The position numbers were made by a program, and so were the translations under genes. Below the pieces are notes generated by a model that worked only from the letters and a program-made list of their open reading frames with translations, ran no database searches and was not told the DNA's origin. A stretch of DNA of 64,000 bases from NCBI RefSeq assembly GCF_000184345.1, contig NC_017583.1, forward strand, positions 372,001 through 436,000, written 5' to 3'. This stretch comes from Spirochaeta thermophila DSM 6578. Its GTDB lineage: Bacteria; Spirochaetota; Spirochaetia; Winmispirales; Winmispiraceae. Of the stretch, positions 47,972 to 50,608 are shown piece after piece (position 1 is the stretch's first letter; the number at the start of each line of letters is the position of its first letter).

Positions 47972-50401
47972 CTAGACCACGATGTTCACGATCTTGTTCG
48001 GGACGGTGATGACCTTTTTCATCTCTTTCCCGTCGATCCACTGGCGGATGCGCTCGTGGGAGAGTGCCCGTTTCTCGAGTTCCTCTTTGGGAAGGTCCCT
48101 CGGTACCTCGATCCTGGCCCGGACCTTGCCGTTCACCTGGATCACCACCGTGACGACCTCGTCGATGGTGAGGGCCTCGTCGTATGTGGGCCAGGGGTGG
48201 TAGGCGAGGGTGCCTTCATGGCCGAGTTTCTCCCACATCTCTTCGGCGATATGGGGTGCATAGGGGGCGATGATGAGGACGAATGGCTCCCACAGGGACC
48301 GAGGCACGCGCTCGAGCTTGTAGATCTCGTTGATGTAGGTCATCATCTGGGCGATGGCGGTGTTGAACCTGAGATGCTCGGTGTCCTCTGTGACCTTCTT
48401 GATCGTCTTGTGGAGGAGCTTGAGGAGGTCGGGATCGGGTTCTTCGTCCGTGATCTCCCGTTCGCTTATGTCCCACACCCTGTTGAGGAAGCGGTGTACC
48501 CCCACGAGCCCTTTGGTCGACCAGGGCTTCGTGGCCTCGAGCGGTCCCATGAACATCTCGTACATCCTCAGGGAATCCGCACCGTACTCCTCGACGATAT
48601 CGTCGGGGTTCACCACGTTGCCCCGGGATTTCGACATCTTCTCCCCGTCTTCGCCCAGGATCATGCCTTGATTCACCAATCTCATGAACGGCTCGTCGGT
48701 GTTCACGAGTCCGAGATCGTAGAGCACCTTGTGCCAGAACCGGGCGTAGAGGAGGTGGAGTACTGCGTGTTCTGCCCCTCCCACGTAGAGGTCTACCGGC
48801 ATCCAGTAGTCGATCTTCTCGCGCGATGCGAATTCCCGGTCATTGTGCGGGTCGAGATACCGGAGGTAGTACCAACAGGAACCGGCCCACTGCGGCATGG
48901 TGTTGGTCTCCCGGTAGGCCTTTCTCCCTGATCCATCGGGCGCGGTGGTCTCAACCCATTCCCTGATAGCCGCAAGTGGAGATTCTCCGGTACCGGTTGG
49001 TTTGTAGCTTTCCACCTCTGGGAGGGTCACTGGAAGCTGGTCGTAGGGCACTGGCTGAACCCCATCTCCCTCTACGTGTACCACGGGAATAGGTTCACCC
49101 CAATACCGCTGTCGTGAGAAGATCCAGTCCCGCAGGCGGTAGTTCACTGCGCGCTTCCCGATTCCCTTTTCCTCCATGTAGGCGATGATCTTCTCTTTCA
49201 TCTCCTTGGTGGGGAGGCCGCTGAAGGGGCCCGAGTTGATGCTGATGCCTTCCTCCACGAAGGCTTCGGTGAGTTCTTCTTCCTTGCCGTTCCTCGAGAC
49301 CACTTGGACAATGGGAAGGTCGAACTTCTTCGCGAACTCCCAGTCTCGCTCGTCGTGGGCCGGGACAGCCATGATGGCGCCCGTACCGTAGGTGATGAGG
49401 ATGTAGTCGGAGATCCACACCGGGATCTCTCTCTCCGTGAAAGGGTTGATGGCGTAGGCCCCTGTGAACACACCGGTCTTTTCCTTGGCGAGATCGGTGC
49501 GCTCGAGATCGGATTTGAGCTGGGCCTGTCGTACGTATGCCTCGACAGCCTCTCGCTGTTCAGGGGTGGTGATCTTCTGCACGAGCGGATGCTCGGGCGC
49601 GAGCACCATGTAGGTGGCGCCGAAGACCGTGTCGGGTCTGGTGGTGAAGACCTCGATATGACCGTCGTGGTCTTTGAGGGGGAATCGGATGTCCGCCCCC
49701 TCGCTTCTGCCGATCCAGTTGCGCTGCATGGTCTTGATGGACTCGGGCCAGTCGAGCTTGTCGAGACCTTCCAGGAGTCGGTCTGCATAGGCGGTGATCC
49801 TGAGCATCCACTGTCTGAGGGGTTTTCTGATCACGGGATGGTTTCCCCGTTCCGAGCGTGGTCCCTCGGGGGTCTGGATTACCTCCTCGTTCGCGAGCAC
49901 CGTGCCGAGGGCCTCACAGAACCAGACAGGCACCTCCGCCATGTACGCGAGTCCCATCTCATACATCTTGAGGAACATCCACTGGGTCCACTTGTAGTAC
50001 TCCGGCCTGTGTGTGGCGATCTCTCTGTCCCAATCGTAGGAGAAGCCGAGGGACTGGATCTGCTTCCTGAAACGATTGATGTTTCTCTCGGTGGTGATAC
50101 GGGGATGTGTTCCCGTGGTGATGGCGTAGATCTCGGCAGGCAGGCCGAAGGAGTCGAACCCCATGGGATGGAGGACCTGATAGCCTCGCATCCGGAGGTA
50201 GCGGCAATAGATGTCGGTGGCGGTGTAGCCCTCCGGGTGTCCCACGTGGAGGCCCTCTGCCGAGGGATAGGGGAACATGTCGAGGACGTATCTTCGTTTT
50301 TCCCTCGGAACCGACGGATCTTCCTTGACGGAAAAGGTCTTGTGTTCAAGCCAGTAGCGTTGCCATTTCTTTTCTATGTCTCTGAATGAGTAGTTTTTCA
50401 T
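47972..50401 (-). CDS. leuS: Leucyl-tRNA synthetase
   Basis: 809 residues. HIGH motif HVGHPEGYT in [49 protein letters not shown]. The CP1 editing domain has [22 protein letters not shown], and [16 protein letters not shown] is the KMSKS loop. The C-terminus has the short Leu-specific domain ([15 protein letters not shown]). Length and order are standard. There is no Shine-Dalgarno before ATG 50401; the -10 lies 8 nt upstream, so leaderless initiation is likely. Confidence 0.98.
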
Positions 50402-50409
50402 GGTGAAAG

Positions 50410-50438
50410 ATGATACAGGAGGTTCAGGGTGAGGTCAA
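50410..50438 (-). promoter_or_regulatory. leuS promoter, leaderless type
   Basis: On the minus strand TTGACC (50433-50438), exactly 17 bp, TATCAT (50410-50415), then CTTTCACC and the ATG at 50401. The predicted leader is 0-2 nt. Confidence 0.75.
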
Positions 50439-50455: not shown

Positions 50456-50571
50456 AAAAAAAGTCCCCCCAGGAAAGGAGGTAGAAACCTGGGGGGAACA
50501 AAGCGGGTAACTCTTCGCGTCCTTCTCGGGAAAGGAGGTGAAACCCGAGAAGGAACATCGTTCCATTACCT
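50456..50571 (-). ncRNA. Candidate small RNA with two anti-Shine-Dalgarno hairpin loops
   Basis: Predicted ~116-nt transcript on the minus strand. Hairpin 1 has a 10-bp stem (CCTTCTCGGG/CCCGAGAAGG, 50521-50553) with loop TTTCACCTCCTTT. Hairpin 2 has a 9-10-bp stem (CCCCCCAGG/CCTGGGGGG, 50465-50496) with loop TTTCTACCTCCTTT, and its 3' side runs into seven T residues, so it doubles as the terminator. The stems differ completely while the loops share ACCTCCTTT. Loop 1 contains TCACCTCCTTT, identical to the 16S rRNA 3' tail by general knowledge. No open frame is present. A cis leader of leuS is the alternative. Confidence 0.7.
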
Positions 50572-50578
50572 GATTCAG

Positions 50579-50608
50579 AATATACTACAGGTGGAGTGAA
50601 AATGTCAA
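50579..50608 (-). promoter_or_regulatory. Promoter of the candidate small RNA
   Basis: On the minus strand a perfect TTGACA (50603-50608), 18 bp and TATATT (50579-50584). The start is expected near 50571. Confidence 0.75.

Follow-up and report, generated by a model that had tools for sequence, protein, structure and literature searches.

A putative anti-Shine-Dalgarno small RNA of Spirochaeta thermophila DSM 6578 with relatives across the class Spirochaetia and a frequent ECF-type promoter element

A predicted small RNA (sRNA) of S. thermophila DSM 6578 that carries copies of the 16S anti-Shine-Dalgarno (anti-SD) tail in its loops has, judged by covariance models, relatives in most families of the class Spirochaetia. 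A new observation is that 36 of the 69 distinct homologues lie behind TGTAAC-N17-GTT, a putative promoter element that also stands before an ECF sigma factor gene and htrA. We consider it likely, with a probability of roughly 0.7, that these are trans-acting anti-SD sRNAs, the loops of which probably block Shine-Dalgarno (SD) sequences and the siblings of which often belong to an ECF regulon resembling an envelope-stress regulon. Gene structure, conservation, covariation, constancy of the loops, promoter association and separation from leuS were all read from sequence. The wider family, the link to the ECF regulon and two siblings elsewhere in the genome lay beyond the sight of the earlier note on this DNA.

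Structure of the predicted sRNA gene

The window, which is the whole 64,000-nt stretch analysed here, is part of a complete 2.56-Mb genome. The earlier note had described TTGACA-18-TATATT on the minus strand, followed by two hairpins with like loops and a T7 run, and this description was exact to the base (Table 1). The two hairpins have unrelated stems and near-alike loops, and the RNA folds with a z-score of -3.57, with none of 200 shuffled sequences equally stable. The suggested match between the loops and the 16S 3′ end was borne out in the organism itself. Both rrn copies end in GGATCACCTCCTTTCT, indicating that the sRNA loops carry the organism's own anti-SD sequence, and loop 1 with the next C has 12 consecutive bases in common with this tail.

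In Markov controls, CCTCCT-centred hairpins arose by chance about 6 times per 64 kb with a stem of at least 7 and 1.3 times with a stem of at least 9, while one with a stem of at least 9 and a T-run was found in 0 of 30 control windows. CCTCCT hairpins alone are common by chance, and it is sequence conservation that decides that the window observation is real. An open reading frame in the sRNA (MERCSFSGF...) was not kept in the same-family locus L003, and a coding RNA was rejected. From its layout, the window locus is read as a free-standing sRNA gene, separate from leuS and equipped with a promoter and a terminator of its own; the discrete sRNA gene proposed from the window is thus upheld, and it is conserved.

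Table 1. Predicted features of the sRNA locus, the adjacent leuS and the sibling RNAs in the same genome
Feature	Position	Strand	Remark
sRNA promoter -35 box TTGACA	50603..50608	minus	same hexamer in L002 (same genus) and L003 (same family)
sRNA promoter -10 box TATATT, spacer 18	50579..50584	minus	unchanged in L002 and L003
Predicted sRNA, about 116 nt	50456..50572	minus	the -10 box sets the predicted 5′ end and the T-run the predicted 3′ end
Hairpin 1, 11-bp stem TCCTTCTCGGG / CCCGAGAAGGA	50520..50554	minus	
Loop 1 TTTCACCTCCTTT (also written UUUCACCUCCUUU), anti-SD copy	50531..50543	minus	
Hairpin 2 (terminator hairpin), 10-bp stem TCCCCCCAGG / CCTGGGGGGA	50464..50497	minus	class-wide conservation
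Loop 2 TTTCTACCTCCTTT (also written UUUCUACCUCCUUU), anti-SD copy	50474..50487	minus	
T7 run of intrinsic terminator	50456..50462	minus	same-strand T-run in nearly all homologues
leuS (leucyl-tRNA synthetase)	47972..50401	minus	outside the sRNA transcript; named from translation
leuS promoter, leaderless-type, TTGACC-17-TATCAT	50410..50438	minus	ends 8 nt before ATG, after the sRNA terminator
Second sibling (L143)	G000:C1:1374401-1374359	minus	about 75-80 nt, TTGACA-17-TATAGT
Third sibling (L371)	G000:C1:2323172 downwards	minus	behind TGTAAC-N17-GTT

Conservation of the family and selection on its loops

In a search of 60 relatives, the whole RNA was found at 95% identity in the same genus and at 76% within the family; several other families had the terminal hairpin. 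The pattern CAGG..ACCTCCTTT..CCTG occurred in 56 of 198 class genomes, compared with 4 for the reversed pattern. A stricter pattern including the terminator, run against about 85,000 species of bacteria and archaea, was found in 62 stretches, all of them spirochaetal. Families with other stems escaped this strict pattern, and the covariance models R1 and R2 were used instead; they are home-made, and their E-values are rough. With R1, 91 of 296 genomes of the phylum had a match at E <= 0.05; with R2, 77 of 296 did at E <= 0.01. The covariance search of spirochaete genomes that the earlier note had proposed recovered the terminal hairpin, with R2 at E <= 0.001, in 107 of 198 class genomes and 59 of 92 genera, and by our own count in 34 of 43 class families. 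For the small-genome family f19, no R2 match was listed at this threshold among the 198 class genomes. A model match in G028 (L148) without an anti-SD loop was dropped.

No family of Rfam release 15 reached its gathering score with the window RNA; the best sub-threshold matches were anti-hemB (RF02837; 24.5 bits, gathering score 49.5) and Hrs12 (RF02630; 28 bits, gathering score 70). A literature search, with most subscription papers outside its scope, returned no report of a spirochaete RNA of this kind. We found no class-wide spirochaete sRNA described, and the phylum has seen little work on riboregulation.

Selection on the loops, which had been argued from the two window hairpins, was supported by covariation. 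The alignment held 87 matches (73 distinct) and, as it was fitted to the model, it leans towards it. Of its stem cells, 99.1% were paired, and 7 of 9 pairs had changes on both sides, with 89 double-change cells compared with 18 when shuffled. The covariation score was 0.443, while shuffled alignments gave 0.172 and slid ones at most 0.186. There were 31 different 5′ stems, and CCTCCTT (CCUCCUU) was present in 84 of 85 loops, a count that excludes two junk rows of alignment A4. Loss of the loops in relatives had been named beforehand as grounds for refutation, and the loops were found to be kept. ACCTCC occurred in 76 of 85 loops and the longer 16S match TCACCTCCTTT in only 16. What is kept is thus the complement of the SD core.

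The same anti-SD loop stands on two unrelated hairpins in the window and in L003, L008 and L048. In many lineages a second loop copy lies upstream, either in a hairpin or just before the terminator hairpin, and other lineages have a single anti-SD loop. Some single-loop loci (L006, L011, L110) share a hairpin type without anti-SD, TGTTAACGGGATCCGAAATAGTCCCGGTAACC, upstream of the terminal hairpin. Close to its 5′ end, the sRNA of L063, L065 (from a Sphaerochaeta MAG), L070, L112 and L120 has a common 5′ block, CAGAAAGAGAACGAC, and a stretch TTTTTCTAACCTCC, which were seen only there. Three to four sibling hairpins per genome were observed in some families (G027 and G129 of f26; G079, G090 and G121 of f34); at L315 and L319 an additional TTTTCCTCCTTTTC hairpin lies farther upstream.

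Promoters and the candidate ECF regulon

In the 260 nt that precede the terminal hairpin, TGTAA(C/G)-N16-18-GTT was present in the 36 loci mentioned above; it was found 0 times downstream and 0 times in antisense, and shuffled sequences gave a mean of 0.4 and a maximum of 3. The spacer between TGTAAC and GTT was mostly 17, and the element resembles an ECF sigma promoter. A TTGA..TAnnnT site was found in 26 of the 33 loci without the TGTAAC element and in 12 of the 36 with it (Fisher p = 2.3e-4), which suggests that two promoter types replace each other. The window locus has a sigma70-type promoter and lacks the ECF element, as do its counterparts in the same family; L008 and L048 of f28, which have tandem hairpins and are leuS-linked, carry the ECF-type element. 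Among the sibling hairpins of multi-copy genomes the element is present in part, in some cases perhaps as TGTTAC. Across the wider set, the more stringent motif TGTAACCNTT-N13-GTT often occurred once per genome, at the sRNA.

The candidate sigma factor is an ECF protein of 165-176 aa that scores above cut-off with TIGR02937 and shows 33-58% identity between families; it was found in all 7 genomes examined. In the own genome, G001, G026 and G031, the start codon of its gene comes 6-7 nt after the TGTAAC element, and G002, G023, G021 and G059 have near matches. In several genomes, ECF loci (L329-L335, L368, L369) have a presumed promoter element of their own 6-9 nt before the start codon. A distance of 6-7 nt fits an autoregulated, leaderless gene, and the ECF sigma gene is probably both. 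The ECF assignment is based on shared sequence and position and is likewise putative. In G026 and G031, the reading frame after the ECF gene begins like an anti-sigma factor (LSAYIDGEL).

The element also precedes an HtrA/DegP-type protease gene (Trypsin_2 and PDZ domains) in two f20 genomes and an evident htrA homologue in the own genus. The own genome has 7 TGTAAC-N17-GTT sites with the 17-nt spacer, compared with 4 for the reversed control. They include the ECF gene, htrA and the third anti-SD sRNA, all three of which are conserved in the same genus; the others lie at two exported-protein genes, one further gene and one apparently chance site. The sites L359, L361 and L363 (two exported proteins, one of them outer-membrane-like, and one further gene) are also present in a same-genus genome, and these genes are candidate members of the ECF regulon.

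Three predicted sibling anti-SD RNAs, one with the ECF element, were thus found in the own genome. The second has CAACCTCCAGTCCCCCCC ahead of a hairpin whose loop is TTTTCCTCCTTT, with T7 after the hairpin, and it is conserved in the family (L143, L144, L145). In the third, a hairpin AAAGGAGAGCGCGTCGCGCTCTCCTT is followed by GCCTCCTTTTTTT and by a terminal hairpin with loop TGTCACCTCCTCG; G001 and G002 also have this RNA, the latter as L304 (loci L371, L370, L304).

Mode of action, alternatives and relation to known systems

We infer transcription, SD pairing, translational repression and envelope stress as the signal. The two hairpins of the predicted RNA would display the 16S anti-SD tail copy in open loops, which probably pair with the SD regions of mRNAs and block ribosome binding and initiation on chosen messages. 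Siblings would be induced through the ECF element in about half of the loci, across many lineages, as part of an envelope-stress-like regulon; for the family to which the window belongs, the copy at the leuS locus would be driven by a sigma70-type promoter and another sibling by the ECF element. Loops of the NfeR1/alpha-r14 RNA pair with ntrB at its translation start and thereby silence it, three anti-SD loops act redundantly, and Hfq is not needed (PMC10746234). Canonical Hfq (PF17209) was found in 0 of 60 class genomes, while the control genomes gave matches; a divergent Hfq could escape the profile.

A loop complementary to the generic SD could also serve a global shut-down RNA directed at the majority of SD-led mRNAs and sparing leaderless ones; leuS and the ECF sigma gene both appear to be leaderless, and leaderless mRNAs are common, as found experimentally, in Leptospira, a studied spirochaete (PMC5243855). 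We consider this unlikely, and global action is not supported so far. The loop complement AAAGGAGGT occurred 34 times in the own genome and its reversed control 64 times, and a search for perfect-complement AAAGGAGGT targets in three genomes gave no enrichment. About 6 genes of the own genome, including a katG-like gene, have AAAGGAGGT as SD, and the candidate lists of the own genome and G002 did not overlap; no target emerged from these counts. A GGAGG-type SD preceded only about 32% of 294 ORFs (interior control 12%), and a leaderless-type promoter 12 of 294 (control 0 of 178). Known anti-SD sRNAs, moreover, act on subsets of mRNAs (PMC10746234).

A tentative and rather doubtful extension of the SD-blocking reading is that, in much of the class, the autoregulated ECF sigma factor, itself made from a leaderless mRNA, induces several SD-masking siblings, such that envelope stress would favour leaderless mRNAs, including the sigma factor's own and leuS. 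The leaderless genes make this idea of selective translation directly testable, and a conserved anti-SD family with an ECF sigma factor offers a testable envelope-stress circuit.

The loops might instead mimic the 16S tail in order to bind a protein, such as Era, S1 or another 16S 3′-end factor, rather than mRNAs. The 12-base match of loop 1 and the class-wide constant loop core would suit such a mimic. Era reads the GAUCA part of the 16S tail, and this part is not kept; what stays constant is only the SD-core complement, and the sibling loops diverge further (TTTTCCTCCTTT, TGTCACCTCCTCG). This makes a protein-binding mimic quite improbable.

In 21 loci from several families, some of the same species twice and a few without a clear -35 box, leuS lies downstream on the same strand. 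This arrangement would be expected if the sRNA were a cis-acting leader or attenuator of leuS, with the terminator controlling read-through, an alternative that the earlier note had also raised. In about 20 of the 21, however, the sRNA terminator is followed by a -10-like box that ends 7-9 nt short of the leuS start codon and usually has a TTGAC box 17 nt upstream of it (L003, L010, L041, L046, L081 and L104, among others; L128 lacks the pattern). It suggested that leuS is leaderless and separately transcribed, and the earlier note's remark on leaderless genes nearby is supported by this leaderless-type leuS. Most other loci have no leuS downstream, and in other clades the neighbours are pfkA, pgi or acyl-CoA synthetase-like genes (names from translations). 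With the possible ORF in the RNA not conserved either, a leuS leader is very improbable, and it was ruled out on the separate promoter and the leuS-free loci. Hardly credible at all is a functional plus strand whose GGA-containing hairpin loops (AAGGAGGU) titrate a CsrA-like protein, since the minus-strand T-run is found in nearly all homologues and both promoter elements favour the sense direction (ECF-type 36 sense against 0 antisense; sigma70-type 33 against 4 of 68).

Returning to trans-acting anti-SD sRNAs, the design most closely resembles alpha-r14/NfeR1/cuckoo of Rhizobiales and other alphaproteobacteria, with several hairpins, an unchanging anti-SD loop and diverged stems. Such loops on diverged stems were described in Rhizobiales (PMC3927594). 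Those RNAs are trans-acting, as we presume for the spirochaete family. The cuckoo/alpha-r14 loop is CCUCCUCCC, whereas the spirochaete loop is (A)CCUCCUUU; the former motif was not found in the spirochaete loops, which have CCUCCUU. The two also differ in phylum and promoters and have no Rfam-level similarity. With the loop motif absent and all Rfam thresholds missed, we call the spirochaete RNAs a separate family, which most likely works like cuckoo/alpha-r14/CcsR without belonging to it.

In E. coli, the siblings MicA and RybB are driven by the envelope-stress ECF factor sigmaE, beside htrA/degP and its own gene, and these RNAs have other seeds and need Hfq. The spirochaete case is alike in that one ECF element is common to sibling sRNAs, htrA and the sigma factor's own gene; it differs in its anti-SD loops and in that no canonical Hfq was found in the 60 class genomes. 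CcsR1-4 of Rhodobacter sphaeroides are cuckoo-type siblings under an alternative stress sigma promoter. The spirochaete family presents a similar design, in which loop, sigma factor and phylum are different. For the CcsR operon the promoter is of the RpoHI/RpoHII type (PMC10253847), in contrast to the ECF-type or sigma70-type promoters here. CcsR1-4 are co-transcribed with, and processed from, ccaF1 (DUF1127), whereas the spirochaete genes are free-standing. Association with a DUF1127 protein gene is a feature of the CIN1 locus of cuckoo/alpha-r14 (PMC10253847); here, where only large ORFs were considered, the nearest were leuS, pfkA, pgi and acyl-CoA synthetase-like genes.
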